This document shows, one piece after another, positions 6,540 through 59,945 of a stretch of 64,000 nucleotides of DNA. The stretch is taken from assembly GCF_004364165.1 (NCBI RefSeq), contig NZ_SOAY01000010.1, positions 523,098 to 587,097 of the forward strand, written 5' to 3'. The position numbers and the translations under genes were made by a program. Position 1 is the first letter of the stretch. Each line of letters opens with the position of its first letter. Origin of the DNA: Maribacter spongiicola (GTDB taxonomy: Bacteria > Bacteroidota > Bacteroidia > Flavobacteriales > Flavobacteriaceae). Below the pieces are notes generated by a model. That model was not told the origin of the DNA. It saw only the letters and a list, made by a program, of their open reading frames with translations, and did not search any database.

Positions 6540-6654
6540 GTTTGAGCCATATCAGTGATATGGTTCAAAGGTATTTAATTACTTGCTATGATTTTAGCTT
6601 TAAGTTCTTCTAAATCTTCAAGATAAATTCCAGATGAGGTTTCCATAGCAAAAA

Positions 6655-6688
6655 CAAAAAAATCCTGCTCAGCGGCAGGATTTTTTTA
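6655..6688 (-). terminator. Rho-independent terminator after aspS
   Basis: The 8-bp stem AATCCTGC/GCAGGATT (6661-6668 and 6675-6682) with a 6-base loop is flanked by A/T runs on both sides, so it can work in both directions. It ends the aspS transcript about 22 bases after the stop codon. Confidence 0.85.
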
Positions 6689-6709
6689 ATATTATTTTGT
6701 CAAGATTAA

Positions 6710-12100: not shown

Positions 12101-12646
12101 GTCTTCTACTTCATCTTGTAAATATTCAGCAAACTCTTTCAACTTTTCTACAGGGTAATCTCCTGTGAAATTGATATTCATAATAGGTACTTCTTCAGAG
12201 AAATTGAGGTCGAACACATTTGGTTCTACCTTGGCACCATTGAAAGTAGGCCAGTCTTCACTCGCTTTTTCACTATCTACTTCATCTTTTACCTTTTGCT
12301 TAGCTTGCTCAACGGTAATGTCCTCGTCAAATTCTATGGTTAAAATAGCGTAATCTTCTTGAGAAGTTGAGGTAATTTCTACTACGTTGCTAATATTCTT
12401 TAACCGATCCTCTAAAGGGTCTGTAATCAGTTTTTCAATATCTTCGGCAGTGTTACCTGGGTAAGGTGTACTAATATAGATTTTGGTCTCTATAATTTCA
12501 GGAAAATCTTCTCTGGGCATCGCCATATAGGCGCTGAATCCCAACCAAAGAAAAATAGCAATCATCACATAAATAACCGAGGGGTTATCAATGGCCCAAG
12601 ACGATAAACCGAATTCCTTATCGGCGTTCTTTTGTACTTTGCTCAT
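9143..12646 (-). CDS. RND-family efflux pump, inner-membrane subunit
   Basis: 1167 residues with the AcrB/MexB plan: TM1 near residues 20-38, a large periplasmic porter domain, TM2-6 (about 340-560), a second porter domain, and TM8-12 (about 930-1140). The TM4 motif GMLVDNGIVVVENVYR carries the acidic residue of the proton relay. It sits 6 bases downstream of its adaptor gene. Substrate cannot be named; the sequence looks like the HAE1/hydrophobe branch rather than the heavy-metal branch, but that is a judgement. It is the last gene of the operon repressed by the TetR protein at 15186-15791. Confidence 0.93.
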   Translation of the reverse strand: MSKVQKNADKEFGLSSWAIDNPSVIYVMIAIFLWLGFSAYMAMPREDFPEIIETKIYISTPYPGNTAEDIEKLITDPLEDRLKNISNVVEITSTSQEDYAILTIEFDEDITVEQAKQKVKDEVDSEKASEDWPTFNGAKVEPNVFDLNFSEEVPIMNINFTGDYPVEKLKEFAEYLQDEVEDLPEIKQADIRGAQDLEVEVGVDIYKMMAAKISFQDVISAISNGNMTMSAGNLKTVGQRRTIRILGEVEDPKELNNFVVKSENGAVYLKDIATINFQAKDKTTYAREFGNNVVMLDVKKRAGRNSISAADKIKELVKKEKANYFPPDLNISIANDSSTRTLNQVDDLVNNIIFGIILVVTVLMFFLGFRNALFVGFAIPMSMFMSFVILSWLGYTLNTMILFGMIMGLGMLVDNGIVVVENVYRLMDEGLSRTEAAKKGIGEIAYPIIISTATTVAAFVPLGLWPGIFGQFMIYFPITLSVVLGSSLFVAIFMNSMLVSKFMSTDEKELTLKQLIRMSVILGGLGALILLFGGAMRGLGSVLILTAIMFWAYKYIIKGSAIRFQKRTMARFENWYERRLKHALRGSNVYWYFGITFLMLIGVFMLFGMSVGSGRTKIEFFPDNKPNEIYVYVEYPEGTSIEKTNEITKEVENQVYAIMNDDMYKNEKGENFMMASAVSVVGEGAGNPLTDGGSSAEMPHKGKVTVNFSEYKFRNGLNTEDIRGRVQAALQGIYPGVAISVEKDANGPPAGFPINIELEGNDYDELINTAEDIKNFINTKNIAGIEELKIDVNKGKPAMQVIVDREKAGELGVAVGQVGNQLRRSIFGEKAGVYKEDGEDYDINIRFNEDLRYNKSALFNQNIIFRDPSNGQIKEIPISAVATEKNTSGYSAIKHRDGKRVVTIYSGLKPGFTDAGAIVAEIQNEMGSFDGTPATVKIDYTGQLEEQAKQQAFLVGAFFSGLGLIMLILIFQFGGISKPLIIMIAIFLSFIGVFGGLMITGWSFVIMMTMMGIISLAGIVVNNGVVLLDYTQILIDRKKVRLGIEDSDLLTMDDATDSMIVGGKARLRPVILTAITTVLGLIPLAIGLNIDFFALFSEFNPHIYIGGDNVIFWGPLAWTVIFGLIVATFLTLIIVPVLFNIVYRIKVKFSSFGNKSKDSNERLESVA

Positions 12647-12652
12647 CGATAT

Positions 12653-13819
12653 TTATTTTTTGATTTTTACTTTTTGACCATCTTTTACACTTCTGGCACC
12701 TTCTTTAATAATTTCGTTACCATCTGCTAAACCAGATAATACTTCAATATTCGCACCTTGTGTTCTACCAGTAATAATTACGCTTCTTTTTACCAAAGCC
12801 TCACCATCTGCATTAGGCTCTTCTGCAACGAAAACATATTGCTCACCATCTGCATTTTCTGAAATTATACTAGTCGGTATTAATATAGCGTCTTCACTTG
12901 TATAGTCGTTAATAGCGACTTTAGCAGAAAGATTCGGTTTAATTTTACCTTCTTTATTCGGTACAGGTATTTCAACTTCGAAAGATCTATTCGAAGGATT
13001 GATGAAATTGCCTGTCTCTCTAATTTTTGTAACAATACTATCACCCAAAACAGGAAAGTATACTAAAGCTTCTTTTCCTTTAGAAACGCTACCTAAATAT
13101 GTTTCTGGCACTTCTACCTCAATGTACATGTCAGAAAGATTTACAATACGAAATACCTCTGAACCTGGACCAGGGGCAACTACGGTGCCTTGGTCTTTTA
13201 TTACATTGTCAATAATACCAGAGAAAGGTGCTCTTATGGTAGACTTCCCTAATTGGCTCTGTGTTTGAGAAACCATATTCTCTGCAGCTTCATAATTGGT
13301 TTTAGCTTGTAAATATTGAATTTCTGAACCTATATTCTGGTTCCATAAACGCTCTTGACGCTCAAAAGTCGTTTTTGCCAAAGCAGCTTGAGATTTCAAT
13401 TGACTTACTTGGCTAGACATACCGCCATCATCAATAGTAGCTAATACTTGCCCTCTAGAAACTCTGTCACCTTCTTTAACATATACTCTTTGAAGCGTAC
13501 CCGCCATTTCTGGGTAGATCAGTACATTTTGCTTAGTAGAAACATCACCCTGTAATTCTAAGTAGTGGTTAAAAAGCTCTTTTTTTGCTGTTAATGTGTT
13601 TACCAATGGTAATTTCTCTTCATTACCCAAAACGGCTATTGCAGAATCTAAAGATTTTAATTGTGCATCAATCAGTTTTTGTTGTGAGGTTATATCATTT
13701 TTCTTAGCTCTTATTGCCTCTAAGTCTTGTTGTGCAATGATATCGGCTACCGATTGCTCACCACTGCCACATGAGTATATGCCAACGGTTGTAATTAATA
13801 AAATTAGTATTTTCTTCAT
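12653..13819 (-). CDS. RND efflux periplasmic adaptor (membrane fusion protein)
   Basis: 388 residues; a lipoprotein by its signal (LLITTVGIYSCGSGEQ, acylated Cys17). A coiled-coil hairpin (about 30-75 and again 130-190) surrounds a split lipoyl/barrel-sandwich domain (VYVKEGDRVSRGQVLATIDD; STIRAPFSGIIDNV), followed by beta-barrel and membrane-proximal domains. It links the RND pump to the TolC-like channel. Gene order TetR-TolC-adaptor-RND with gaps of 0, 25 and 6 bases marks one operon. Confidence 0.93.
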   Translation of the reverse strand: MKKILILLITTVGIYSCGSGEQSVADIIAQQDLEAIRAKKNDITSQQKLIDAQLKSLDSAIAVLGNEEKLPLVNTLTAKKELFNHYLELQGDVSTKQNVLIYPEMAGTLQRVYVKEGDRVSRGQVLATIDDGGMSSQVSQLKSQAALAKTTFERQERLWNQNIGSEIQYLQAKTNYEAAENMVSQTQSQLGKSTIRAPFSGIIDNVIKDQGTVVAPGPGSEVFRIVNLSDMYIEVEVPETYLGSVSKGKEALVYFPVLGDSIVTKIRETGNFINPSNRSFEVEIPVPNKEGKIKPNLSAKVAINDYTSEDAILIPTSIISENADGEQYVFVAEEPNADGEALVKRSVIITGRTQGANIEVLSGLADGNEIIKEGARSVKDGQKVKIKK

Positions 13820-46911: not shown

Positions 46912-48453
46912 ATGAAAGATAATAAACAGATACTAGCAGAGAAACTGGCATTGGCTAAATTAGGTGGTGGTCAAGCTCGTATTGATAAACAGCACGCCAA
47001 AGGAAAGTTAACTGCTCGTGAACGTGTTCATTTTTTATTAGATGAGGGTTCATTTGAAGAAATGGGCGCTTTGGTTACACACCGTACTAAAGATTTTGGC
47101 ATGGAAAAACAAGTTTTCTATGGTGACGGAGTGGTAACAGGTTACGGTACTATCAACGGAAGACAAGTTTGCGTTTTTGCACAAGATTTTACAATTTTTG
47201 GTGGTGCGCTATCTGAAACGCATGCCGAAAAAATCTGTAAAATTATGGATATGGCCATGAAGATAGGTGTACCTATGATTGGTCTGAATGATAGTGGAGG
47301 AGCCCGAATTCAAGAAGGGGTTCGTTCTTTAGGTGGATATGCAGATATTTTTCATAAAAACGTAATGGCATCGGGGGTAATTCCGCAGATTTCTGCTATA
47401 ATGGGACCTTGTGCAGGTGGTGCAGTTTACTCGCCTGCAATGACCGATTTTACCTTAATGGTAGAGAACTCTAGTTATATGTTCGTTACCGGCCCGAATG
47501 TGGTGAAAACGGTAACAAATGAAGAAGTGACATCGGAAGAATTGGGTGGTGCATTAACGCATGCAACTAAATCTGGTGTTACGCATTTGACTGCAGCTAA
47601 CGATATTCAATGTATCAATCAGATTAAGCAGATGATCAGCTACATGCCTCAGAATTGTGAGGATAAACCGACCGATATACCATTTGAGCCAGGTAATGAA
47701 GTTCGTGATGTACTAGAGGATATTGTTCCTGAAAATGCAAATCAACCTTACGATATGCGTCACGTCATCAACGGAATTATTGATGAAGATACCTTCTTTG
47801 AAATTCATGAAGCGTATGCTGATAATATTGTTGTGGGCTTTGCACGGTTAGGCGGTAAAAGTATTGGTATTGTTGCCAATCAGCCTATTAGTTTGGCTGG
47901 TGTTTTAGATGTTGATAGTTCTAAAAAGGCAGCACGTTTTACTCGTTTTTGCGATTGTTTCAATATTCCGTTATTAGTATTGGTAGATGTACCTGGATTT
48001 TTACCCGGTACGGATCAAGAATGGAACGGAATTATAACTAACGGAGCAAAATTATTATATGCTTTAAGTGAAGCAACAGTGCCTAAAGTAACGGTTATTA
48101 CGCGAAAAGCGTACGGTGGTGCGTATGATGTAATGAACTCTAAACATATTGGAGCTGATTTAAATTACGCGTGGCCAGGTGCAGAAATTGCAGTAATGGG
48201 CGCAAAGGGAGCGAGTGAAATTATTTTTAAGAAAGAAATAAGTGCTTCTGATGATCCTGTGGCGAAATTGGCTGAAAAAGAGGCAGAATATGCAGACTTA
48301 TTTGCTAACCCATATAGCGCTGCACAAAGAGGGTTCATAGATGAAGTAATTCTACCAAAAGATACCAGAAGAAAACTAATAAAAGCATATACAATGCTAG
48401 AGAATAAAGTGGCTACTTTACCAAAGAAGAAGCATGGTAATATTCCGTTATAA
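46912..48453 (+). CDS. Acyl-CoA (probably propionyl-CoA) carboxylase beta subunit
   Basis: 513 residues, crotonase-fold carboxyltransferase: [24 protein letters not shown] (about 123-147), [16 protein letters not shown] (about 163-180) and, in the second half, [19 protein letters not shown] and [19 protein letters not shown]. It transfers CO2 from biotin to the acyl-CoA. Overall it looks like PccB rather than AccA/AccD, and the methylmalonyl-CoA mutase genes at 61827-64000 fit propionyl-CoA as substrate. Methylcrotonyl- or acetyl-CoA cannot be fully excluded. Confidence 0.94.
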
Positions 48454-48505
48454 TATTCGGCATTTTAAAAGTGGATGTCTACCTGTTTTAAGAGGTCATG
48501 TAGCT

Positions 48506-49531
48506 TTACACCATCAAAGAAGAATCCCTAACGATAAGGCTGGTTTTAATCTCAACGGTTTTTGTCATTACATCATTGGTAGGGTTTTCTAGTTCTTGAA
48601 TTAAAAAACGGACTGCGGTACGTCCTATTTTATCGCCAGGTTGATCGACTGTGGTTAATGCGGGACTTACGATGGTGGAGTTGATGGAGTTGCTAAAACC
48701 TACAACGGCTATTTCTTCAGGTATTTTTACCTTGAATTTATGTAGTGCCTTTATTGCGCCGATGGCAGCATTATCTGTTATTGCGAAAATGGCATCAGGG
48801 CGCTTCTTCATGCTTAAAAGAATGTTGGTCAATCGTCTTCCGTTTCCTAATGAAATATCTTCTGTACTTAAAATTAGTTTATCGCGCACTGGTATACCAT
48901 ATTTATTTAAAGCTCTTAAATAACCAGCATACCTTTTTTCAGAATTATAAGAGTTTTCTGTTTCCTTAATTATAGCAATACGCTGTTTACCCAATTCAAT
49001 TAAATGCTCAACGGCATTGAATGCAGCTTCCTCTTCATTGATTACAACTTGTGTACAGGGTATTTTACTTGACACTTTATCGAACAGGACTATAGGTATG
49101 CGGTTTAATATTTTTAATATTTCTTCAACATTGATTGTCTTTCTGGACAATGACATCAATACACCATCGACACCAAATTGTGTCATGGTGTTTAGCATTT
49201 CTACCTGTTTTATCTCATTATTATTCGATTCTGAAATAATAACACGATATCCGCGTAGTTCGGCTTCCTCTAAAATTCCCTTTAATATAGTTGAGGTAAA
49301 CAAATGAGATATGTTTGGTACGATGACCCCAAGTATATGAGTTTCACGAGATCGAAAGCCTCTTGCAAATAAATTGGGTACATAATTCATTTGCTTAGCT
49401 AGCTTTCGAACCCTTTCTTTCGTCTCTTGGCTAATATCTGGGTGATCATTCAGTGCCCTAGAAACTGTGGAAATTGATAGACTCAATTCTTTAGATAATT
49501 CTTTTAATGTAGTATTTCTTTTTTTGCTCAC
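48506..49531 (-). CDS. LacI-family regulator of the glycosyl-glycerate locus
   Basis: 341 residues, GTG start. LacI helix-turn-helix with hinge (TLKELSKELSLSISTVSRALNDHPDISQETKERVRKLA, about 8-45, then YVPNLFARGFRS), followed by the periplasmic-binding-like sensor domain with ILGVIVPNISHLFTSTILKGI and VVGFSNSINSTIVSPALTTVDQP. It is divergent from the TonB receptor; two overlapping palindromes GCAAACGTTTG (49590-49615) lie between and are classic LacI/CcpA-type sites. It probably controls itself and the genes up to the glycerate kinase. Confidence 0.94.
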   Translation of the reverse strand: MSKKRNTTLKELSKELSLSISTVSRALNDHPDISQETKERVRKLAKQMNYVPNLFARGFRSRETHILGVIVPNISHLFTSTILKGILEEAELRGYRVIISESNNNEIKQVEMLNTMTQFGVDGVLMSLSRKTINVEEILKILNRIPIVLFDKVSSKIPCTQVVINEEEAAFNAVEHLIELGKQRIAIIKETENSYNSEKRYAGYLRALNKYGIPVRDKLILSTEDISLGNGRRLTNILLSMKKRPDAIFAITDNAAIGAIKALHKFKVKIPEEIAVVGFSNSINSTIVSPALTTVDQPGDKIGRTAVRFLIQELENPTNDVMTKTVEIKTSLIVRDSSLMV

Positions 49532-49563
49532 GATTGAATATCAATGAATTATAATTATTTTAT

Positions 49564-49595
49564 CAGAAATACAATACTACAAAATAAATTGCAAA
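49564..49595 (-). promoter_or_regulatory. Predicted lacI promoter, -33 TTTG inside the operator
   Basis: -7 TATTTCTG (49564-49571, one mismatch to TAnnTTTG), 20 bases, -33 TTTG (49592-49595). The -33 element lies within the operator, which suggests autorepression. Confidence 0.4.
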
Positions 49596-49615
49596 CGTTT
49601 GTGCAAACGTTTGCA
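49590..49615. promoter_or_regulatory. Tandem LacI-family operators
   Basis: Two overlapping palindromic sites: TGCAAACGTTTGTG (49590-49603) and TGCAAACGTTTGCA (49602-49615, perfect 14-bp palindrome). Their centres are 12 bases apart, a bit more than one helical turn, so two dimers would bind on nearly the same face. CG at the centre is the LacI-family hallmark. Confidence 0.8.
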
Positions 49616-49632
49616 TTGATATTTCGTTAATA

Positions 49633-49666
49633 TTTGGTTAATAGAATGCTATATTCATATAATTTG
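49633..49666 (+). promoter_or_regulatory. Predicted promoter of the TonB-receptor operon
   Basis: -33 TTTG (49633-49636), 21 bases, then TATAATTTG (49658-49666), an imperfect -7 box with one extra base. It lies 17 bases downstream of the LacI operators, so the operators are upstream of this promoter rather than on it. Confidence 0.4.
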
Positions 49667-49726
49667 GTCTCACAATCAACGATTTGATAATTTAAATCGA
49701 TTCAACTTAAAAAAAACTCAAACATT

Positions 49727-52402
49727 ATGAAGAAAATTATTTTTGCGGTAATCGGACTTCTTATCAGTGCAGGCTCCTTTGCACAGACCGATATTTCAGG
49801 AACCGTAACAGACAGTTCAGGAGAGCCAATTCCCGGTGCTAACATTTTAATTACAGGTAGTACATCGGGTACAACATCAGATTTTGATGGTAATTTCACT
49901 TTTTCAACAGATCTTACTGGTGCTCAAATACTACGTGTATCATATATAGGGTTTACATCTGTTGATAAATCTTTAAACTTAAATGGTACAGCACAGACGG
50001 TAAATGTAATGCTACAAGAAGGTGGTCAGCAACTAGATGAAGTTGTACTTACAGCTTCTAGTACATTTCGTTCTCAAAAGCAGGCACCATTGTCAATTAG
50101 TTCGGTGAAAATGGCAGAGATTACTAAGCTCTCTGCAAACAGCCAGGCAGATATTCTAAGAAGTGTACCTGGTATTACCGCTGAAGGTGGTGGTGGTGAA
50201 ACGGCAAGTAACATATTCGTTAGAGGTTTACCTTCTGGTGGTCAGTATGTTTTTAACCCTTTACAGTATGACGGTATGCCTTTGATTAGTTCTTTCGGAC
50301 TAAACTCTTCTGCGCACGATGTCTATGCAAGACCAGATATAGGTTTTAAAGGTGTTGAATTTGTTCGTGGTGGTGCAGCTGTATTATATGGTGCAGGTTC
50401 TGTTGCCGGTATTATCAACTACACAAGTAAAACAGGTGATACCAACCCTGGTAATATTATCAATATTGAAGTTGCCAACCAAGGTAGAATTAAAACAGAT
50501 TTCTATTCTGGTGGTCAGCTAGGTGGTGAAGATTCTAATACATACTATGCTTTTACAGGTTTTGTACGTCATGATAGAGGTCCTATCGACGTAGGTTTAC
50601 CAACTAAGGGTGTTCAATTTAGAGGTAATATCAAAAAGAAATTCGATAACGGTTCTTTTACCTTAAGCGGACAATTTATAGACGATAAAGCTCAATTTTA
50701 TCTTCCTATACCATTAAGTGGTGGTAGCAGAGAGCGTATAAATGGTAATGATGGTAACCCAGTTGAACAGTTGTTATCTGGTGACTTAGCGAATACTTCA
50801 TTCAATACTCCTGGTGGAACTTACAATAGCCCTATAGCTGATGGTGTTTCTACTACTGGTGGTTATTTAATGGGAGATTTCAATTACAGATTTGAAGATG
50901 ACCTTAAGTTGACTTCTAAAATCAAGTATGCTAACTACAAGCACAATTTCGCTCTTTATGTTGGTGGAAATGGTGCAAACGGAAACCCTATCACGCTTAA
51001 TAATTACGTAGAAAGTATCGCTCCTGGTAACTTAGGGTATACTGCTGCTTACCAAAGTGGATCAGGTTCTCAAATTAATGGTAACGATTTAGTAATCGAT
51101 AATTTACATGTGGATCGTTTACGCCCAATGACAGATTACTCTGGTGAGATCAATTTGACAAAATCTATTGAAACAGCAAATGGTGGTAACCATAACATTA
51201 CTGTTGGTTCTTATATCGCTCGTACAGAGGCTGAAGATGTTAACTATCAGTACAGAGTATTGACAGAATTCAATAACAACCCACAATTGGTAAACTTAAA
51301 TTATACCGATGCTGATGGTAATAATGTAGTGTATTCTCAAGGCGGACTTTATAACCGTATTGGTCAGACAGCTAATAACTTTCTTTCTCAAAATAGAGTG
51401 GCATTATATGTTACAGATGAGATGATCTTAGACAGATGGCGTTTTGATGTTGGTTTCAGATGGGAACATACAGATGGTATCAACAGTCGTGGTGGTATTA
51501 TGAGCGAAACAGTTTATAATACTCCAGATATCACAACAGAACTTAGCGATGTACAAACTGCAGATGGTTCTTTCTTAAGAACTGAAGTAAATGCAAGTGC
51601 TTGGGCATTGTCTTTAGCTGGTTTGTATGAGTTAACTGAAACAACCAACCTATATGCTAACTTCTCTAAAGGATATTTCTTTCCACAATTAAGAGGTTTT
51701 GCTCCGGTACCTGGTATTTCTGAAAGTCCTTACGATGCTGAAAATATTATTCAATTTGAAGCTGGTGCCAAATTCGGAAACCAGAAATTCTCAGGATCTG
51801 TTGCAGGGTACTATGTAGGTCTTAAAGATCGTATATCTATTCGCCAAGCAATTGTTGGTGGTCAATTGATCGATGAAACAAGAGCAGAGCAAAATACTAG
51901 GACTATAGGTATTGAGGCTACTTGGGATTATACCCTTGCACAGTTCTTAAAACTTAGAGGTAATGCTACTTATCAAAATCATGAAATTACCAAAAACACC
52001 GATTTCGATTTAGTAAACGGTACGTCTACAGAAGCTAATGTTGGTAACGAATTGGCAAGACAGCCAAACTTATTGGGCGGATTAGGATTGTACTATGACA
52101 ATGCTGCTTTCGATGCAAATTTTGGATTCAATTACACTGGTGCAAAGTTTACAGATGATACGAATAATATAGAATTAGATGCCATAACAATTGGTAGACT
52201 AGGTGCTGGTTATACATTCTCAAAACAAGACGCTAATCAGTCGCTTCGTTTAGGTGTATCAGTTTTTAATCTATTCGATAGTGATGGTATCACAGAAGGT
52301 AATCCTAGAGCTGGTTCAGCTGGTCAAACAGAATCTGAGTTTTTTGTTGGAAGACCAATTTTACCTAGAAGATTGTTCGTAACGGCAACCTTCAATTTCT
52401 AG
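49727..52402 (+). CDS. TonB-dependent receptor of the glycosyl-glycerate locus
   Basis: 891 residues: signal peptide (IIFAVIGLLISAGSFAQ), CarboxypepD_reg-like domain (about 22-105), plug (about 125-240; SQADILRSVPGITAEGG, FVRGGAAVLYGAGSVAGIINYTSK) and a barrel ending RRLFVTATFNF. It is built like FecA/siderophore-type receptors and has no SusD partner, so it would import a small ligand. A LacI regulator is divergent and a glycosidase, symporter and glycerate kinase are downstream, so a glycosylated small solute is the inferred ligand. Confidence 0.93.
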   Translation: MKKIIFAVIGLLISAGSFAQTDISGTVTDSSGEPIPGANILITGSTSGTTSDFDGNFTFSTDLTGAQILRVSYIGFTSVDKSLNLNGTAQTVNVMLQEGGQQLDEVVLTASSTFRSQKQAPLSISSVKMAEITKLSANSQADILRSVPGITAEGGGGETASNIFVRGLPSGGQYVFNPLQYDGMPLISSFGLNSSAHDVYARPDIGFKGVEFVRGGAAVLYGAGSVAGIINYTSKTGDTNPGNIINIEVANQGRIKTDFYSGGQLGGEDSNTYYAFTGFVRHDRGPIDVGLPTKGVQFRGNIKKKFDNGSFTLSGQFIDDKAQFYLPIPLSGGSRERINGNDGNPVEQLLSGDLANTSFNTPGGTYNSPIADGVSTTGGYLMGDFNYRFEDDLKLTSKIKYANYKHNFALYVGGNGANGNPITLNNYVESIAPGNLGYTAAYQSGSGSQINGNDLVIDNLHVDRLRPMTDYSGEINLTKSIETANGGNHNITVGSYIARTEAEDVNYQYRVLTEFNNNPQLVNLNYTDADGNNVVYSQGGLYNRIGQTANNFLSQNRVALYVTDEMILDRWRFDVGFRWEHTDGINSRGGIMSETVYNTPDITTELSDVQTADGSFLRTEVNASAWALSLAGLYELTETTNLYANFSKGYFFPQLRGFAPVPGISESPYDAENIIQFEAGAKFGNQKFSGSVAGYYVGLKDRISIRQAIVGGQLIDETRAEQNTRTIGIEATWDYTLAQFLKLRGNATYQNHEITKNTDFDLVNGTSTEANVGNELARQPNLLGGLGLYYDNAAFDANFGFNYTGAKFTDDTNNIELDAITIGRLGAGYTFSKQDANQSLRLGVSVFNLFDSDGITEGNPRAGSAGQTESEFFVGRPILPRRLFVTATFNF

Positions 52403-52433
52403 AAGAAGTTGTGTTAGTTTAAGTTTAATTGTT

Positions 52434-52475
52434 AAACACATTGGTAGTTGGAGAATTGCCAATGTGTTTTATTTA
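52434..52475 (+). terminator. Hairpin after the TonB receptor gene
   Basis: Stem AAACACATTGG/CCAATGTGTTT (52434-52444 and 52459-52469), 14-base loop, then TATTTA. The T-run is short, so it may only lower read-through from the receptor gene into the catabolic genes. It is followed at once by the structured repeat. Confidence 0.6.
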
Positions 52476-52571
52476 CTCGATAATCGAGAATTAAATGCAC
52501 TGACGCTTGCGTCGAAATATTAATTATGTTTTCAATTTAATGCCTCGCGGGCTTGTCCCGAGGTTATTTAC
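52474..52571 (+). repeat. Structured intergenic repeat, copy 2
   Basis: 98 bases with the same three hairpins as 31441-31536: CTCGATAATCGAG (52476-52488), GACGC-TT-GCGTC (52502-52513) and CCTCG...CGAGG. In the middle stem a G-C pair of copy 1 is a C-G pair here, so the structure is kept while the sequence changed. It lies between the TonB receptor gene and the glycosidase gene and reaches to 9 bases before the glycosidase ATG. Confidence 0.75.
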
Positions 52572-52579
52572 TAGATAAT

Positions 52580-53893
52580 ATGAACGAAGAATTATATAAA
52601 AAAGCAATTGCAGTTTTAGATGCAAATTTTCAAGAAGGCGGATTTACTATACCTAGTGCTGGTTTATACCCTTTTCAATGGAAGTGGGATTCTGGATTTA
52701 TTGCTATAGGTTTTGCCCATTACGATGTTGAAAAGGCAAAGGCTGAAATGAGAACCTTGCTAGATGCGCAATGGGAAAATGGTTTTATACCTCATATCGT
52801 TTTTCATACAGATAACGATTCTTATTTTCCTGGGGCAGATTTTCATCAATCTGAATTACATCCCTTATCCTCCAAAAAATATAGGTCTACGGGTATGACC
52901 CAGCCACCGGTAACGGGTTTTGTGCTGCAAGAAATGTATCGTATTGCAGAAGACAAGGAAGATATGCTCAACTATATCAAAGAGGATATCGATAAAGTTT
53001 TTGAAAATCATGTGTATTTCTATGAAAATAGAGATCCGCAAAATGAAGGTTTGGTATACATCTATCACAACTGGGAATCTGGTACAGATAATTCTCCTGT
53101 TTGGGATGATATCTGGAAGACTATGAATCCGCCAGAATATACTTTTGTAAGAAAAGATACTACGCATGTAGACGCTTCTCAGCGTCCGACCAAAAGAGAG
53201 TATGATCACTATTTGCACATCATAGATATAGCCAAGCAAAACAATTATGATGATGCCAAAATAGCAGAGCTTTCTCCATTTTTGGTTCAAGATCCTTTAT
53301 TTAATGCCATGTTGATTAAATCTAATCAAGCATTAATAGAATTATATGAACTAATTGGTGGTAACGAAGAGAAAATTAAGACCATTCTAAAGTGGCAAGC
53401 TAAAAGTATTAAAAGCTTTAATGAAAAGTTATTTGATGCTGAATTAGGTGCTTATGTCCACTACGATTTAAGAAATGAAAAACCTATAAGACACATAACC
53501 TCTTCATCTTTTTCTCCATTATTTGCAAATATTCCTTCACCAGAAAGAGCTAAGGTTTTGGTGAAAACTATGATGGATAAGTTTGGTGGAGACGATAAAT
53601 ATTTATGTGCCTCTTTCGACCCTACAAACGATCGATTTAATCCTAAAAAATACTGGAGAGGTCCTGTTTGGATCAACATGAACTGGATGCTTTTTCTAGG
53701 ACTTAAAAATTATGGATTTGCAGATGTTGCGGCACGTATGAAGCATGATAGTATTGAGCTTATAGAGAAATATGGTTTTTACGAGTATTTTGATTGTAGA
53801 AAAAACACTGGTGAAGATAATACCCCTGGTTATGGTGGAAATAACTTTTCTTGGAGTGCCGCTTTGTTTATTGATATGGTGAATACCGATTAA
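52580..53893 (+). CDS. GH63/MGH1-like glycoside hydrolase (probable mannosyl- or glucosylglycerate hydrolase)
   Basis: 437 residues from the ATG at 52580; the frame is open upstream but runs through the repeat. (alpha/alpha)6-barrel of clan GH-G with the GH63 signatures LYPFQWKWDSGFIAIGFAHYD (about 30-48), YHNWESGTDNSPVWDD with the expected general acid D170, and YEYFDCRKNTGED...FSWSAALF with candidate base E412. From memory, the Thermus mannosylglycerate hydrolase uses Asp and Glu at almost these positions (167 and 411). There is no signal peptide, so it acts in the cytoplasm after import. The glycerate kinase in the same operon supports a glycerate-releasing activity. Other GH63 substrates remain possible. 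Confidence 0.85.
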   Translation: MNEELYKKAIAVLDANFQEGGFTIPSAGLYPFQWKWDSGFIAIGFAHYDVEKAKAEMRTLLDAQWENGFIPHIVFHTDNDSYFPGADFHQSELHPLSSKKYRSTGMTQPPVTGFVLQEMYRIAEDKEDMLNYIKEDIDKVFENHVYFYENRDPQNEGLVYIYHNWESGTDNSPVWDDIWKTMNPPEYTFVRKDTTHVDASQRPTKREYDHYLHIIDIAKQNNYDDAKIAELSPFLVQDPLFNAMLIKSNQALIELYELIGGNEEKIKTILKWQAKSIKSFNEKLFDAELGAYVHYDLRNEKPIRHITSSSFSPLFANIPSPERAKVLVKTMMDKFGGDDKYLCASFDPTNDRFNPKKYWRGPVWINMNWMLFLGLKNYGFADVAARMKHDSIELIEKYGFYEYFDCRKNTGEDNTPGYGGNNFSWSAALFIDMVNTD

Positions 53894-53910
53894 ATTTTAT
53901 ACCTGAGTTT

Positions 53911-54504
53911 ATGCAACTGGATTTTGAGACAAATTACGTTTTAGAGAATGATGTCGTAAAACTGGTTCCATTACAAAAGAAGCATTACGCTCCTTTGCTC
54001 AATATATCAAAAGAAAAAAATCTTTGGACATACTTTCTTGGTCCTTCAAATGGGCTAAATAGGTTTGAAGATTATATTGATGAAGCCATTGCCAATCGTA
54101 TCGATAAATTGGAATATCCCTTTGCAGTGTTGGATAAAGCTAAAAATGAATTTGCTGGTTGTACTCGGTTTTTTAGTTATTCAAAAGACCTGAAAGGAAT
54201 TAGGATTGGATATACTTGGTATGGTAAAAATTTTAGGGGCACAGGTGTAAATAAGAATTGTAAATATCTAATGATGCAGTTCGCTTTTGAGCAACTCTTG
54301 GTAGAGAGAATCGGTTTAGGTGCGCACGCGGAAAATAAGTTAAGTATTGCAGCGATGAAAAGTATTGGTTGTGTACATGAAGGTAGCGTTCGTAACCTTT
54401 TTCCTTCTATTGATTATCAAGGAAGAGCTGATGCCGAGCTGTTTGGAATCTTATCCAATGAATGGCATAGCAATATTAAAGGAGTTTTAAATAACAAATT
54501 ATGA
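53911..54504 (+). CDS. GNAT-family N-acetyltransferase (RimJ/RimL-like)
   Basis: 197 residues. GNAT fold: VVKLVPLQKKHYAPLLNISK at the N-terminus, the acetyl-CoA region GYTWYGKNFRGTGVNKNCKYLMMQFAFEQL (about 110-140; the usual R/Q-x-x-G-x-G is RGTGVN), then RIGLGAHAENKLSIAAMKSIGCVHEG, the RimJ/RimL type motif. It lies 17 bases after the glycosidase gene and overlaps the next small gene as ATGA. Its role in the locus is unknown; it may acetylate a sugar or an amino group in the pathway, or detoxify a by-product. Confidence 0.88.
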   Translation: MQLDFETNYVLENDVVKLVPLQKKHYAPLLNISKEKNLWTYFLGPSNGLNRFEDYIDEAIANRIDKLEYPFAVLDKAKNEFAGCTRFFSYSKDLKGIRIGYTWYGKNFRGTGVNKNCKYLMMQFAFEQLLVERIGLGAHAENKLSIAAMKSIGCVHEGSVRNLFPSIDYQGRADAELFGILSNEWHSNIKGVLNNKL

Positions 54505-54587
54505 ATTACATTGACTACATTATAGTCGCTTTTTATGTGCTAGGTATCGTTAGTGTCGGCATATTAATTAAAAAAAATAAAAACTAG
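54501..54587 (+). CDS. 28-residue membrane microprotein resembling TM1 of the adjacent symporter
   Basis: The ORF starts at the ATG that overlaps the acetyltransferase stop (ATGA, 54501-54504) and ends 3 bases before the symporter ATG. It encodes MNYIDYIIVAFYVLGIVSVG plus a basic tail rich in Lys and Asn. The symporter begins MNYVDYIIIVVYLVGFLGLG. About 12 of the first 26 positions are identical and most others are conservative, while several identical residues use different codons, for example GAC/GAT and TAC/TAT. This pattern, and the coupling on both sides, suggests a translated peptide under selection rather than a chance ORF. Likely a duplicated first helix that assists the symporter; function unproven. 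Confidence 0.7.
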   Translation: MNYIDYIIVAFYVLGIVSVGILIKKNKN

Positions 54588-54590
54588 GAT

Positions 54591-56195
54591 ATGAATTACG
54601 TTGATTATATAATTATTGTCGTTTACCTAGTGGGTTTTTTAGGATTGGGCTTTATGTTCAAGGATAATAATACGGGTGGAGATTACTTTTTAGGTGGTCG
54701 TAAAACATCATGGTTGCCTTTAAGTTTATCGGCAATGGCTACCCAATTATCTGCTATTAGCTTTATTTCTGCACCTGCTTTTGTTGGTCTAAAAGAAGGT
54801 GGTGGTATGCAATGGCTTACCTATGAATTAGGTGTACCATTGGCAATGGCATTTTTATTAATTGCAGTGCTACCAACGTTATATAAGTCGGGTATTGTTA
54901 GTGTTTATGAATACTTAGAAACACGATTCGACGCTTCTTCTCGATTATTGATAAGCTTTGTTTTTCAAATTAGTAGATCGGTAGCTACAGGGGTTATGGT
55001 CTATACCATGGCGTTAATTTTACAAGCTACTATCGGCTTAGAGTTTTGGATTTCTATTCTAATTATTGGTCTTATAACCATGGTTTATTCTTTTCAGGGC
55101 GGAATGAAGGCAGTGATATGGGGAGATGTCATTCAAATGAGTATCCTATTTATTGGTATTATCATTTGTTTGTATTTCGGATTTAGTGAACTCGGCGGAG
55201 TAGATAATTTTCTAACCCATGTTGATACCGATAGAATTACTGCAGTAGATTTCAGCAAATGGGGCTTCAATAATGCCGATGGTAATGATGAATTCGGATT
55301 TTGGCCCATGGTAATTGGAGGATTCTTTCTATATGCTTCTTACTATGGTACTGATCAAACGCAATCACAACGATTGTTGTCATCTAGTAGCATGTCTAAC
55401 CTTAAAAAATTGATGATGGCGAACGGACTCCTTCGTTTTCCGTTTACGTTGACTTACTGTATCATGGGTCTTGTGTTGGGTACATTATTATTGCAAGATG
55501 TAACTTTTCAAGAGCAGATGGAAACGGTGTATCAAGCGAATATTGGTTCTCTAGCAGGTAAAAAGGCAGATTTAATGGTGCCGGTTTTTATCATAAAATA
55601 TCTTCCTAATGGAGTGATAGGTATTTTGATTGTGGCTATAATGTCTGCAGCAATGTCTACATTGAGTTCTACAGTGAATTCTTTATCTGCTGTAACTATG
55701 GAGGATTTTGTGAAAAGATTCAACCCTAATATGCCTGATAAAAAATACATGACCTACTCAAAATTACTATCAATTTTTTGGGGTCTGGTATGTCTGTTCT
55801 TTGCATTTTTTGCGGGTAATATAGAAGGTACTGTAATAGAAGTTATTAATAAGATAAGTTCCGTCTTCTACGGTCCTATTTTAGCAGCTTTTATTTTGGC
55901 AATTCTTACTAAAAGAACACATGCCCTTGGTGCCAATATCGGTATCGTAGTAGGGGTGTTGTTCAATATTTACTTATGGCTATACGTGCCACAAATATTT
56001 TGGTTCTGGTGGAATGCTTTAGGTTGCTTGGTGACAATTTTAGTTGCTCTTGCTCTGAGTTATACCGTAAAAAGTAAAGTGAACGAAGGTCTAGAGGTTA
56101 CCTATTACTCCGGTAAAAAAGAGGTAGCTATATTGCTAGGTTACTTTTTACTAATTGTATTGTTCAGTATTTCATTACCTAATATTTTGAATTAA
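54591..56195 (+). CDS. Sodium:solute symporter (SSS family)
   Basis: 534 residues, about 13-14 membrane helices. SSS signatures: DYFLGGRKTSWLPLSLSAMATQLSAISFISAPAFVG (about 30-65; the sodium-site region), VYEYLETRFDASSRLL, and AIMSAAMSTLSSTVNSLSAVTMEDFVKRF (about 345-375), the conserved TM8 sodium-binding serine/threonine region. It takes up a solute together with Na+ through the inner membrane, in line with a marine life. Position between a cytoplasmic glycosidase and a glycerate kinase suggests a glycosyl-glycerate as cargo. It starts 3 bases after the microprotein and ends 4 bases before glxK. Confidence 0.95.
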   Translation: MNYVDYIIIVVYLVGFLGLGFMFKDNNTGGDYFLGGRKTSWLPLSLSAMATQLSAISFISAPAFVGLKEGGGMQWLTYELGVPLAMAFLLIAVLPTLYKSGIVSVYEYLETRFDASSRLLISFVFQISRSVATGVMVYTMALILQATIGLEFWISILIIGLITMVYSFQGGMKAVIWGDVIQMSILFIGIIICLYFGFSELGGVDNFLTHVDTDRITAVDFSKWGFNNADGNDEFGFWPMVIGGFFLYASYYGTDQTQSQRLLSSSSMSNLKKLMMANGLLRFPFTLTYCIMGLVLGTLLLQDVTFQEQMETVYQANIGSLAGKKADLMVPVFIIKYLPNGVIGILIVAIMSAAMSTLSSTVNSLSAVTMEDFVKRFNPNMPDKKYMTYSKLLSIFWGLVCLFFAFFAGNIEGTVIEVINKISSVFYGPILAAFILAILTKRTHALGANIGIVVGVLFNIYLWLYVPQIFWFWWNALGCLVTILVALALSYTVKSKVNEGLEVTYYSGKKEVAILLGYFLLIVLFSISLPNILN

Positions 56196-56199
56196 AAAT

Positions 56200-57330
56200 A
56201 TGCCGATGAAATTTGTAATAGCTCCCGACAAGTTTAAAGGTTCCTTGACCGGATTCGAATTTTGCGATGCCGTAGAGGAAGGTATTAAAATGGTTTTTAA
56301 AGATGCCGAGATTATAAAAAGACCTTTGGCAGATGGCGGCGATGGTACTATGGAAGTCGCTAAGCATTATATAAAAGGAGATACCGTTACGGTAACTGTA
56401 AACGATCCTCTTTTTAGACCTATTAATGCTTCTTATTTATATTCTGACGTTACTAAAATAGCCTACATAGAAATGGCTGAAGCATCGGGATTAAAACTGC
56501 TGAACGTTGAGGAGTTTAATTGTATGGAAACCACCACATCTGGTACAGGTGAATTAATTTATGATGCATTAGAGAAAGGAGCTACAGAAATAATTTTGGG
56601 TATCGGCGGTAGTGCAACAAATGATGGCGGTATGGGTATGGCAAATGCTTTGGGATATCGTTTTTTAGATGAAGATGGACAAGAATTGAGTACTATCGGT
56701 AAAAATCTGTCAAAGGTGAAATCAATAGACGATTCCAATAAGCACAAAAGACTTAATTCAGTAAAGGTTAAAGTGGCTTGCGATGTTACCAATCCGTTTT
56801 ACGGTTTACAAGGCGCCGCTTATGTTTATGGGGCACAGAAAGGCGCTTCTGAAAATGAGATTATATTTCTAAATCAGGGTTTGTGCAATTTTGCAGAAAT
56901 AATTAAAAGTCGTTATAAAATCGATTTACAGAAAATAAGTGGCGCTGGTGCAGCTGGTGGTGTTGGCGGTGGCGCCCTTGTTTTTCTAAATGGCGAATTA
57001 ATATCTGGTAATAACTTAATAAAGGAACTAGCAGATTTTGATAACGTCATTAAAGGAGCCGACTGGATTATAACTGGTGAAGGTCAGCTAGACGAACAAA
57101 CACTTTCTGGTAAGACTATTGACGGCGTAGTTACTTCGGCAGCTTCTAGAAATATACCTGTTGCAGCCTTGTGTGGCTCGGTAAGTATAACCGTAGCACA
57201 ACAGAAAAAATTCGGACTAGCCTATGTTTCTTCCATAGTAAGAGGTATTTCTACATTAAAAGAAGCGATGAATAATAGCAGGGAAAATCTTGTAAATGCC
57301 TCGTATAATTTTGCAAGTTTATTGAAGTAA
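56200..57330 (+). CDS. glxK: Glycerate kinase (GlxK/GarK type I)
   Basis: 376 residues. Type I glycerate kinase signatures: FVIAPDKFKGSLTGFEFCDAVEEGI at the N-terminus, KRPLADGGDGTMEV (about 47-60), EIILGIGGSATNDGGMGMANALGYRF (about 128-155) and GAGAAGGVGGGALVFL. It phosphorylates D-glycerate, in this family usually to 2-phosphoglycerate, which enters glycolysis. Met3 (56206) is an alternative start. It is the last gene of the tight operon from 52580, and the strongest pointer to glycerate as a product of the glycosidase. Confidence 0.95.
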   Translation: MPMKFVIAPDKFKGSLTGFEFCDAVEEGIKMVFKDAEIIKRPLADGGDGTMEVAKHYIKGDTVTVTVNDPLFRPINASYLYSDVTKIAYIEMAEASGLKLLNVEEFNCMETTTSGTGELIYDALEKGATEIILGIGGSATNDGGMGMANALGYRFLDEDGQELSTIGKNLSKVKSIDDSNKHKRLNSVKVKVACDVTNPFYGLQGAAYVYGAQKGASENEIIFLNQGLCNFAEIIKSRYKIDLQKISGAGAAGGVGGGALVFLNGELISGNNLIKELADFDNVIKGADWIITGEGQLDEQTLSGKTIDGVVTSAASRNIPVAALCGSVSITVAQQKKFGLAYVSSIVRGISTLKEAMNNSRENLVNASYNFASLLK

Positions 57331-57587
57331 AGATTACTAATAGACCTTAATATAGCTTAAATTCATCTTACTAATTCAAGTGGAAACTGTACATCGTATT
57401 TTCCTTCTGGTAATTCTTAAAACCATTTAAGATAACCTCATAAGTTCCTTCTAAGTCAGAAGTAAAAAACTCAAAACTATAAGAGCTGTCCTTAATATCT
57501 AGACAGTTTCCCTTTTACCTTTTTGCCTTATTTTTAAGTCATATCCATTCATTACCAAAAACCTTTTTTAAGGGAGGTCATATCCCC
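57331..57587. other. Intergenic stretch after glxK
   Basis: No intact gene is visible. The minus strand holds a possible decayed gene (57371-57560, listed separately), an imperfect direct repeat TAATGAAATGGGGATATGAC / TAATGAATGGATATGAC, and on the plus strand the strong ribosome-binding-like AAGGGAGGT at 57570-57578 before the kinase. Confidence 0.5.
57371..57560 (-). pseudogene. Possible decayed gene remnant
   Basis: Two adjacent minus-strand frames read like one protein broken by a frameshift in a run AAAAGGGAAA near 57510: first MNGYDLKIRQKGK, then in another frame DLEGTYEVILNGFKNYQ followed by a short end and TAG at 57371-57373. The second part has the look of a C-terminal beta domain. 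No family is recognised and chance is a real alternative. Confidence 0.28.
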
Positions 57588-59945
57588 ATTTCATTACTTA
57601 TCAGTATTTTATTACTATTTTTAACATATATACTTGTTAAAATTAATAAATTGAGTCATTATCGTAATAATCCCCAGCTTTTGGAAAAGCATCACCAAAT
57701 ATTTATTGAACAAACGCCAACGGCTATAGCTATGTTAGATACCAATATGGTGTATTTAGCAGTGTCTAAACGGTGGTTAAAAGATTATAAATTAACGTAT
57801 GAAGATGTAGTTGGGCATTGTCATTACGACATTTTTCCAGAGATTGGTGATGATTGGAAAAAAGACCACCAGGAATGTCTAAAAGGAGCGGTTAACATAT
57901 GTGAGGAGGCACCATTTCCTCGTGCTGATGGTTCTATTCAATGGATTTATTGGGATGTACGACCATGGTATAATTTGGATGGTGAAATAGGTGGCTTACT
58001 TATGCATACTGGTGATATTACAGACCAAAAAGAAAAGGAACTTGAGAAAAAACGTGTTGAATCCATTTTAAATGATACGAGCGAAATTGCACGTATTTCA
58101 ACATGGGAAATAAACCTTTCTACTCAAGAGCTTTTATGGAATAAAATGGCCTATAAAATCTATGAAGTTGCAGATGATTTTAGACCAACAGTAGATGGTG
58201 CATTAGAATTTTTTAAATATGATGAGGATAGACAAGCTGCTAAAATTGCAATTCAAAATGCAATTGATTATGGTTCTGCTGTAGATATGGATGTAGAAAT
58301 GCTTACTGCAAAAGGGAATACTGTCTGGGCGAAAATTTTAGGTAAAGTAGAAAGTATATCTGGAGTGCCAATAAGATTTTATGGAATTTTACAAGATGTA
58401 AGTAAAATTAGGCTTACCGAGCAACTTCTTAATAAAGCAGATAAGGAATTAGAAGCTATATTCAATTCATCATCTATTGTAGTAATAACTACTGATAAAG
58501 ACGGAATCATTAATCGTTTTAATAATGGTGCAGAGAAATTGCTAGGGTATACCGCTGCAGAAATGATTGGTTTACAAAAACCGGAAATTTATCTCAGTGC
58601 AGAAGAATTAGATCAGTTCAAAAAAGATATTATAATAGAGTTTGGTAAAGATGCTACAGATATAAATTATAACTATAGAAACGAAAATATTAACGATACT
58701 AGACAATGGACTTATAAAAGAAAGGACGGCACTACCTTTCCGGTATTGTCAACAATAACAGCTGTTAATAATGAGAAGGGTATAAATGAAGGTTTTATTG
58801 CCGTAGCTACAGATATTTCAAAAATTAAAAAAGTAAAGGACGAACTGCATAGAAAAAATGACCTGTTAAATTTAGCCGAGAAAATTAGTTTAATGGGGCA
58901 TTGGCATTGGAATATCGTTGAAGATATCGCTATTTGGTCTGAAAATCTTTATGCTCTTTTGGATCATGTTGGAGAACCCTATACAATCGATTTTGAAACT
59001 TATTTTAACATGGTGCATGATGATGATAAGGAGCTTGTATTGCAACATTTTGAAAAAGCTAAAGAGGTGCAGGTATTTGGAAACCTTACACATAGAATTA
59101 TAACTTTTGCAGGTAATGTTAAAACCATTCAAATATTGGCGAATGTTATCTCAAATGACAAAGGGGAAACTGTTGAAATGATAGGTACTTGCCAAGATGT
59201 AACCGAATCTAAAAAAGCTGAACAGCGATTAATTGATGCTAAAGAAGAATTAGAAGTTGTTGCTCAAAAACTATCATATCAGAATAAACAACTTGCAGAT
59301 TTTACACACATTACCTCGCATAATTTAAGAGCACCGGTTGCGAACTTAAATTCATTGATGGAGATTTATAAGCTTTCAGAAAATGATGAAGAACGCAGAG
59401 ATATATTCGGTAAGTTTGATATGGTAATCGACCGCCTTACTTTAACATTGAATACATTAATAGAAGCGTTAAAAACGAAAATTAGCGATGCCCAAGAAGA
59501 ATTGGAAAATATAGACTTGAATGAAATTTTAGAAAATACGACGCAAACATTAAGTGGTGTAATTTTAACTTCAGGAGCAGTTGTAAAAGGAGATTTTACA
59601 GAAGTGTCGAATATCACTTATAATAAAATATATATGGAAAGTATTTTCCTTAATTTGATTGGCAATGCCATAAAGTACAAAGCAAAAGACAGGGCTCCAG
59701 AAATAATAGTACGGTCTAAGGTTAAGAATGGTAGAAATATTATTACATTTAGAGACAACGGATTGGGAATTGATCTTGATAAACATGGTCACAAATTATT
59801 CGGACTAAATAAGGTATTTCACAGACACCCAGATGCAAAAGGTGTTGGTTTGTTCCTTACAAAAACACAGGTTGAAGCAATGGGAGGCAATATTACAGCG
59901 ACCAGTGAAGTAAATGTGGGAACAACTTTCACAATAATTTTTTAA
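57588..59945 (+). CDS. PAS-domain sensor histidine kinase
   Basis: 765 residues from the TTG at 57651, or 786 if translation begins at a non-standard ATT at 57588, 10 bases after the Shine-Dalgarno-like AAGGGAGGT. The extra part reads SLLISILLLFLTYILVKIN, a good membrane helix, and no ATG, GTG or TTG precedes it in frame. About four PAS domains follow (roughly 15-130, 135-260, 265-390, 410-515), then a dimerisation helix with His557 (ITSHNLRAPVANL, counted from TTG) and an HATPase domain (NLIGNAIKYKAKD, FRDNGLGIDLDKHG, GVGLFLTKTQVEAMGG). It autophosphorylates and probably passes phosphate to the response regulator encoded 11 bases downstream. Signal unknown. Confidence 0.88.
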   Translation: MSLLISILLLFLTYILVKINKLSHYRNNPQLLEKHHQIFIEQTPTAIAMLDTNMVYLAVSKRWLKDYKLTYEDVVGHCHYDIFPEIGDDWKKDHQECLKGAVNICEEAPFPRADGSIQWIYWDVRPWYNLDGEIGGLLMHTGDITDQKEKELEKKRVESILNDTSEIARISTWEINLSTQELLWNKMAYKIYEVADDFRPTVDGALEFFKYDEDRQAAKIAIQNAIDYGSAVDMDVEMLTAKGNTVWAKILGKVESISGVPIRFYGILQDVSKIRLTEQLLNKADKELEAIFNSSSIVVITTDKDGIINRFNNGAEKLLGYTAAEMIGLQKPEIYLSAEELDQFKKDIIIEFGKDATDINYNYRNENINDTRQWTYKRKDGTTFPVLSTITAVNNEKGINEGFIAVATDISKIKKVKDELHRKNDLLNLAEKISLMGHWHWNIVEDIAIWSENLYALLDHVGEPYTIDFETYFNMVHDDDKELVLQHFEKAKEVQVFGNLTHRIITFAGNVKTIQILANVISNDKGETVEMIGTCQDVTESKKAEQRLIDAKEELEVVAQKLSYQNKQLADFTHITSHNLRAPVANLNSLMEIYKLSENDEERRDIFGKFDMVIDRLTLTLNTLIEALKTKISDAQEELENIDLNEILENTTQTLSGVILTSGAVVKGDFTEVSNITYNKIYMESIFLNLIGNAIKYKAKDRAPEIIVRSKVKNGRNIITFRDNGLGIDLDKHGHKLFGLNKVFHRHPDAKGVGLFLTKTQVEAMGGNITATSEVNVGTTFTIIF

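Follow-up and report, generated by a model that had tools for sequence, protein, structure and literature searches.

An operon of Maribacter spongiicola predicted to import and split a glycosyl-glycerate, with mannosylglycerate (digeneaside) as the favoured substrate

Digeneaside, 2-O-alpha-D-mannosyl-D-glycerate, is an osmolyte of red algae. Here we describe an operon of Maribacter spongiicola, built around a glycoside hydrolase and a glycerate kinase, for which mannosylglycerate is probably a main natural substrate. The operon lies in a window of 64,000 nucleotides (assembly GCF_004364165.1, contig NZ_SOAY01000010.1, positions 523,098-587,097) of a 4.46-Mb genome in 18 contigs, and all positions given below are window positions. 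The first-pass annotation of this DNA had proposed that these genes import and split a glycosyl-glycerate, and had left the sugar open. The proposal of import and cleavage is well supported by the closest fold and active-site residues and by the linkage to a glycerate kinase within the family, and of the two sugars the mannosyl form is now favoured. The operon appears as a well-supported member of a kind of locus that had already been predicted, with a predicted function; new here are the isomerase-type genes that follow the kinase in some relatives, and the mpgS and mpgP genes beside distant homologues, as evidence on the sugar.

We infer the substrate, the direction of transport, the inducer and the route of mannose as follows. 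The glycoside would cross the outer membrane through a TonB-dependent receptor and would be carried intact into the cytoplasm by a Na+-coupled SSF symporter. There, an inverting GH63/MGH1-type enzyme, with acid D170 and base E402, would release mannose and D-glycerate from it. The latter would be phosphorylated by glycerate kinase and enter glycolysis as phosphoglycerate, and mannose would be used through a sugar kinase and a mannose-6-phosphate isomerase encoded elsewhere in the genome, the isomerase being part of the operon in some relatives. A LacI-family protein would repress the operon from a pair of palindromes spaced by 12 bp, until an inducer, either the glycoside or one of its products, releases it. 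Gene content, the kept gene order, the operator, the active-site residues, the fold and the isomerase linkage were read from sequence.

The hydrolase and its active site

The hydrolase gene (52580..53893, forward strand) codes for 437 amino acids from its ATG, with a possible alternative TTG start nine codons upstream. The protein matches PF22422 over the whole domain (residues 1-356; 311.5 bits against a cut-off of 27), and weaker Trehalase and Glyco_hydro_63 Pfam matches also exceed their cut-offs. By phmmer, the closest solved structure is the Thermus mannosylglycerate hydrolase 2z07 (E 1e-93), followed by the mycobacterial glucosylglycerate hydrolase chains 6g3n (1e-63) and 5ohc (2e-62). 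An AlphaFold2 model calculated from an alignment of 38 relatives (pLDDT 85.1, pTM 0.90) aligned with Thermus 4wva at Z 50.4 (411 residues, root-mean-square deviation 2.0, 41% identity) and with 5ohz, the Mycolicibacterium hassiacum enzyme MhGgH, at Z 45.6 (426 residues, 31% identity), while other GH63/GH37 enzymes (YgjK, trehalases) gave Z 28-32.5. The (alpha/alpha)6 barrel with a cap that is described for 4wva and 5ohc (PMC6608630, partial text) is present in the model, whose less certain regions, residues 61-110 (mean pLDDT 59-69) and 161-220 (68-79), hold several contact residues. This comparison with the Thermus and Mycolicibacterium hydrolases, which the first-pass annotation had suggested, matched the fold and found the residues of the glycerate site kept.

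PMC6608630 (partial text) identifies Asp182 and Glu419 of MhGgH as catalytic and also lists the residues in contact with the glycosyl and glycerate moieties; numbers in the PDB chain are higher by 2 than in that paper, fitting an extra Gly-Ala. Their positional equivalents in the window hydrolase are D170, E402, Y30, W34, W36, D37, H72, Y82, Q108, R202, Y208, Y358 and W359, of which Y30, W34, Y82, R202 and Y358 form the glycerate site. We followed these 13 positions in a flavobacterial set of 101 sequences, taken from a first set of 81 loci and from 20 further loci, both defined below. All are invariant except H72 (99/101), and in 15 more distant sequences all are invariant except H72 and Q108 (13/15 each). 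The acid D170 is the one named in the first-pass annotation. Its candidate for the base, E412, was wrong: this residue lies in a variable loop and is glutamate in only 10 of 38 sequences. The base is E402, which aligns with MhGgH Glu419 and is glutamate in 101 of 101 sequences of the flavobacterial set. We predict that the protein is an inverting mannosylglycerate hydrolase with acid D170 and base E402. As had been claimed, it has no evident signal peptide, since reading of the sequence, done without a predictor, found no signal-like stretch after the start MNEELYKKAI.

At the position of MhGgH Gln434, a glucose contact, the window hydrolase has Phe, as do 2z07 and every one of the 116 sequences. 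We considered this Phe as a mark of mannose specificity and dropped it because it also occurs in the mycobacterial chain 6g3n, so that the position says nothing about the sugar.

The conserved gene set and its probable substrate

The receptor gene (49727..52402, forward strand) codes for a TonB-dependent receptor with a CarboxypepD_reg-like N-terminal domain and a plug (PF00593 92 bits, PF07715, PF13715), with an N-terminus that reads as signal-like; it is probably the outer-membrane entry point of the glycoside. Divergent from it is the gene of a LacI-family repressor (48506..49531, reverse strand; PF00356 46.9 bits, PF13377 114.5 bits), likely the local regulator of the operon. The hydrolase gene is followed on the forward strand by a GNAT N-acetyltransferase (53911..54504; PF13302, Acetyltransf_3, 56.5 bits), an open reading frame (ORF) for a single helix of 28 amino acids (54501..54587) that resembles the N-terminus of the next protein, an SSF-family Na+/solute symporter (54591..56195; PF00474 155.8 bits, TIGR00813 256 bits against a cut-off of 184), and a glycerate kinase of the PF02595 type (56200..57330). 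The symporter is predicted to import the intact glycoside across the inner membrane. The kinase exceeds the cut-offs of both TIGR00045 (429.4 bits against 168.45) and PF02595 (454 against 23.3), remains below those of the narrower equivalogs PRK09932 (327 against 625) and PRK10342 (322 against 686), and matches PDB 3cwc at E 2e-83. A second glycerate kinase is encoded elsewhere in the genome, beside a PF00939 symporter, which suggests that the kinase of the operon is dedicated to it. Pfam, NCBIfam and the ORF coordinates bear out the gene list of the first-pass annotation, including the gaps of 17, -4, 3 and 4 bases between the last five genes and a receptor without SusD: no ORF of SusD size lies between the receptor and hydrolase genes, and the receptor scores 107 bits with the SusC/RagA model TIGR04056, under its cut-off of 368. 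An Rfam scan of 48400-57800 found no family at gathering score.

The first locus set came from one scan of species genomes and consisted of the best 80 of 116 relatives together with the window (81 loci), and it favours close kin; loci are denoted by L numbers. Two of them, L062 and L080, are cut off within the operon, while L082 is without symporter and kinase, and L088 is without kinase; GNAT and kinase in loci other than the window were called by phmmer with the window proteins. The symporter is present in 79 loci, the kinase in 77, the receptor in 71 and LacI in 70. The order hydrolase-symporter-kinase is found in 77 of the 81 and all five genes in 65, and the genes flanking the operon vary from genus to genus. 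The hydrolase (E <= 1e-60) occurs in 58 of 395 sampled Flavobacteriaceae genomes, the window's included, belonging to 44 of 203 genera, and, within the window's own genus, in two of the four genomes listed, again counting the window genome; because of this patchy presence, the hydrolase is an accessory trait. From those 58 we took 20 further loci, namely 18 matches under 59% identity (52-58%) and two chosen others, and found the symporter in 20/20 and the kinase in 18/20. In a phylum-wide sample a match was present in 20 of 392 genomes, 8 of them in Flavobacteriaceae, and 14 of the 15 matches outside the family were compared as loci: the symporter adjoins the hydrolase in three, and in two of these the receptor is also there. 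The first-pass annotation had expected kinase and hydrolase to be adjacent in related genomes, which holds within Flavobacteriaceae and fails in these 14 loci.

By score, symporter and kinase each fall into two classes, combined as high/high (symporter/kinase) in 49 loci, low/low in 18, low/high in 8, and two with fragments. L034-L054, against L049 and L059-L061, have divergent symporter and kinase classes in the same gene order, even among Cellulophaga (L059 against L036-L039). Since two score classes share one order, the genes for symporter and kinase were perhaps replaced in situ.

Other features vary around this core. GNAT stands directly 3' of the hydrolase gene in 24 of the 81 loci and is an optional member: in the window's clade of nine loci the window alone has it, and it also occurs in L115, of another family. 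The nearest relatives of the window hydrolase are Maribacter sequences (<=95% identity), and 45 of the 78 inner branches of the hydrolase tree are starred. A second branch (L133-L150, 52-58% identical) has the core of hydrolase, symporter and kinase, without LacI or a receptor of the window type. Among L133-L152, a MurQ-like gene is found in 15 of 20 loci (once within a long ORF and once 8 kb off), another TonB receptor in 16 of 20 and DUF4249 genes in 16 of 20; the SIS-domain gene near these hydrolases was considered as a sugar sensor and dropped, being MurQ-like (NCBIfam 324 bits, cut-off 302). In L148 a gene for a GntP-family permease (5396-6724) stands where the glycerate kinase is otherwise found.

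Mannose, unlike glucose, needs mannose-6-phosphate isomerase for its use. Isomerase-type genes of two kinds directly follow the kinase in 12 of the 81 loci. In six of them it is a class I ManA (gap -4 to 3), and three of these six, when scanned, exceeded the TIGR00218 cut-off of 116 (173, 156 and 148 bits). In six other loci it is a mannose-P-isomerase cupin of 171 amino acids (gap -4 to 14); a Pfam scan of one of the six gave PF01050 at 40.3 bits (cut-off 23.6), and the other five were assigned by clustering. The ManA loci occupy four places in the hydrolase tree (Spongiivirga, Aquimarina, Winogradskyella and Lutibacter), where a single gain with later losses is a possible alternative to four separate gains; the tree's own label count is one change, with the 69 unlabelled rows left out. 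Genome-wide, PF20511 matched nothing else in two of the six genomes with such a ManA (L044, L063) and one or two more genes in the other four. In L027 a ROK-family gene lies 3' of the kinase after a 61-base gap. Furthermore, mpgS and mpgP, the genes of mannosyl-3-phosphoglycerate synthase and phosphatase, stand beside the hydrolase homologue in 4 of the 14 outside-family loci (L120, L121, L123, L127; one checked by curated models). These four, from another family of the phylum, possibly hold a cassette that makes and breaks mannosylglycerate. The window's genome has one ManA outside the operon (184 bits, over the TIGR00218 cut-off), which PF20511 found and PF01238 did not, and one ROK gene, and a search of this genome found no MpgS. 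Because of the isomerase-type genes in 12 of 81 loci, the mpgS and mpgP genes beside distant homologues, and a genome with ManA and no MpgS, imported mannosylglycerate (digeneaside) is favoured over glucosylglycerate as the likely substrate.

Several observations weigh against this choice. The fold and residues cannot tell which sugar is bound, because the Thermus and Selaginella enzymes act about equally well on mannosyl- and glucosylglycerate, while MhGgH favours glucosylglycerate almost tenfold (PMC6608630, partial text). No isomerase gene is present in 69 of the 81 operons, the window's included. Two of the cupins score 33 and 30 bits with NCBIfam isomerase models whose cut-off is 373, and all six cupin loci belong to one supported branch of 10 rows in the hydrolase tree, so that they may represent one event. 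There is no mannose kinase in the window operon, and the ROK gene of the genome is no more than a candidate for one. The searches for a synthase covered MpgS, none being aimed at GpgS. Glycerate kinase adjoins the hydrolase in 0/14 of the outside-family loci. Some cassettes are damaged (symporter and kinase short in L040, symporter in pieces in L081, receptor split in L009), and some carriers, such as Flavobacterium and Frigoriflavimonas, are neither marine nor algal by name.

The most direct alternative, that the substrate is glucosylglycerate from marine picocyanobacteria, cleaved to glucose and D-glycerate, appears unlikely to us. Some Prochlorococcus and Synechococcus strains make this compound (PMC6753628, partial text), MhGgH, which prefers it, has the same active site as the window hydrolase, and the NCBIfam glucosylglycerate hydrolase model NF047898 matches the latter at 331 bits; however, this score (330.8) is under the curated cut-off of 550, in both sequence and fold the Thermus mannosylglycerate hydrolase is closer to the window enzyme than MhGgH is, isomerase-type genes, superfluous for glucose, are present in 12 of 81 operons, and homologues stand beside mpgS and mpgP in 4 of 14. 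There is about one chance in a few that the system is a generalist, with both glycosyl-glycerates as natural substrates, scavenged as anionic osmolytes wherever an alga or a cyanobacterium lyses; this reading overlaps with that of mannosylglycerate as a main substrate. The similar efficiency of the Thermus and Selaginella relatives on both compounds (PMC6608630, partial text) agrees with it, and the spread over 44 of 203 genera fits a broad resource, whereas the isomerase linkage points to mannose as the main burden.

Two further explanations are very improbable. If the substrate were a neutral disaccharide, of the trehalose or kojibiose type, and the kinase served another pathway, the weak Trehalase and Glyco_hydro_63 matches would be accounted for, but not Y30, W34, Y82, R202 and Y358, invariant in 116 sequences, nor the Z values of 28-32.5 with YgjK and trehalases against 50, nor the presence of the kinase in the cluster in 77/81 and 18/20 loci. 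It is just as hard to believe that the enzyme turns over a compatible solute made by the cell itself instead of food. MhGgH likely does so (PMC6608630, partial text), as perhaps do the homologues beside mpgS and mpgP in L120, L121, L123 and L127, yet the operon has an outer-membrane receptor and a symporter, and MpgS, as opposed to GpgS, which was not searched for, was absent from the genome, the 81 loci and the 20 further loci. Endogenous turnover of mannosylglycerate through MpgS is unlikely given its absence from the window's genome, and was rejected on that ground.

Floridoside is the galactosyl-glycerol of red algae. In Wenyingzhuangia heitensis (L072) a GH97 gene (11257-13260) lies between the hydrolase and symporter genes and scores 666 bits with an NCBIfam alpha-galactosidase model, whose cut-off is 800; floridoside would be a fitting extra substrate for this locus.

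Operator, hairpin and the 28-codon ORF

The double operator proposed in the first-pass annotation is real. Two 14-bp palindromes of the TGCAAACGTTTGCA type lie 12 bp apart, with a 2-bp overlap, at 49590..49615 between the LacI and receptor genes. We scored its conservation in the 70 loci with a readable region between LacI and the next gene, the window included. The best single 14-mer site had 0-3 mismatches in 69 of the 70; among 1400 shuffles, 25 reached 3 and none had fewer. Two AAACGTTT cores at the 12-bp distance, sharing at most 2 mismatches between them, were found in 64 of 70 loci, against 0-7 of 70 for each other spacing from 9 to 25 bp. With a looser limit of at most 4 mismatches the numbers were 69/70 for the 12-bp pair, 16-60/70 for other spacings and 87/1400 for shuffles. 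In the whole genome, the 14-mer occurs at one mismatch or fewer only once, at the operon, while the reversed-pattern control gave 2 and 2; consequently the operator stands out by its place and conservation, not by excess. Weaker operator sites elsewhere in the genome are possible. The overlap of the palindromes at a fixed spacing might correspond to two LacI dimers or to another mode of binding.

Terminator-like sites are more numerous in the region (10) than in shuffles (5.1). One is a hairpin of 16 pairs with a U-rich tail (52434..52469, forward strand) in the 177-nucleotide gap between receptor and hydrolase genes, a gap with a z of -5.07. Of 18 relatives, two (L019 and L028) fold weakly in the first 70 nucleotides after the receptor gene and the other 16 reach -14.8 kcal/mol or lower; similar hairpins are seen at this place in relatives such as Maribacter, Arenibacter, Allomuricauda and Pseudozobellia. 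The hairpin is possibly a partial terminator, through which receptor mRNA may exceed enzyme mRNA.

The residues of the 28-codon ORF, MNYIDYIIVAFYVLGIVSVGILIKKNKN, resemble the first 28 residues of the symporter, MNYVDYIIIVVYLVGFLGLGFMFKDNNT. Each of the nine members of the Maribacter clade to which the window belongs carries the ORF (window, L009-L015 and L018; branch support 93/95, not starred). In seven it has 28 codons and stops 3 bases before the symporter; in L013 it has 26 codons and ends 10 bases before it, and in L009 it reads on past the symporter start. It was not seen outside the clade by reading L016, L017 and L020 or by a pattern search, although the pattern also missed L009, L014 and L015. 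Between loci, the mean synonymous (pS) and nonsynonymous (pN) differences of the ORF are 0.65 and 0.16 (pN/pS ~0.24), compared with 0.62 and 0.02 for the first 26 codons of the symporter, these values being drawn from nine related, non-independent sequences over 26 codons with no null model. They fit a coding sequence under loose selection, and the likeness suggests that the ORF may have been born by partial duplication of the first helix of the symporter.

Significance and relation to known systems

If this proposal is true, red-algal digeneaside is a food for a recognisable set of Flavobacteriaceae, represented by the 58 of 395 genomes with the hydrolase, and an older prediction based on homology becomes a direct test of mannosyl against glucosyl substrates. 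The operator could be used in reporter assays, the operon could serve as a marker for mannosylglycerate turnover in metagenomes, and the small ORF offers a tractable case of the possible birth of a microprotein from a transporter. We put forward only tentatively the combined picture, in which a widespread route for scavenging intact mannosylglycerate, made up of receptor, Na+ symporter, GH63 enzyme and kinase, with an isomerase in some, and independent of a phosphotransferase system (PTS), makes the compound a specific currency between red algae and Flavobacteriaceae, and in which one Maribacter clade has a membrane microprotein of about 28 residues, copied from the first helix of the symporter and kept by selection, that maybe tunes the symporter or its translation.

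Genes for digeneaside degradation were reportedly predicted in Zobellia galactanivorans by Barbeyron et al. in 2016. Homologues of these genes are described in Maribacter dokdonensis 62-1 (PMC8072126, 2021, partial text), and digeneaside is listed among further possible substrates in PMC6298971 (partial text), so that the earlier statement that no Bacteroidota locus of this build had been described is doubtful. The Zobellia and Maribacter genes share with the window the predicted substrate and the same or a related genus, and five Zobellia loci (L019, L021, L023, L024, L026) show the order LacI, TonB receptor, hydrolase, symporter, glycerate kinase, syntenic with the window. The published digeneaside locus is likely identical with the window operon. 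In the open-licence literature, mostly at the level of titles and summaries, we found no biochemical test of such a Bacteroidota locus, and no evidence on an isomerase, operator or microprotein in it.

With SusCD-type polysaccharide utilization loci the operon shares a TonB receptor with a CarboxypepD_reg domain, an adjacent sugar hydrolase and a regulator; it differs in having no SusD, no evidently secreted hydrolase and, presumably, a small-molecule cargo. A SusCD locus was rejected, no SusD-sized ORF standing beside the receptor and the SusC/RagA score being under its cut-off. The Thermus thermophilus mannosylglycerate hydrolase (GH63; 4wva, 2z07) shares fold, catalytic pair, contact residues and 41% identity with the window enzyme, which, in contrast, is encoded together with a receptor, a symporter and a kinase in a regulated operon for import. 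MhGgH (5ohc) shares the fold (Z 45.6), the catalytic pair and the glycerate-site residues, and differs in its 31% identity and in having Gln434 where the window enzyme has Phe; it serves cells that recover from a lack of nitrogen, and its preferred substrate is glucosylglycerate (PMC6608630, partial text).

A route like that of E. coli, with PTS and GH38, was rejected, since Pfam found neither among the operon proteins. In that organism the GH38 enzyme MngB performs the cleavage, yielding mannose-6-phosphate. The E. coli mng system (MngR/MngA/MngB) has the same proposed food and is repressor-controlled, according to the title of Sampaio et al. 2004, and its mannosylglycerate importer is the PTS protein MngA, EIIABC (PMC8490865, partial text), whereas the window operon uses a TonB receptor, a Na+ symporter and a GH63 enzyme.

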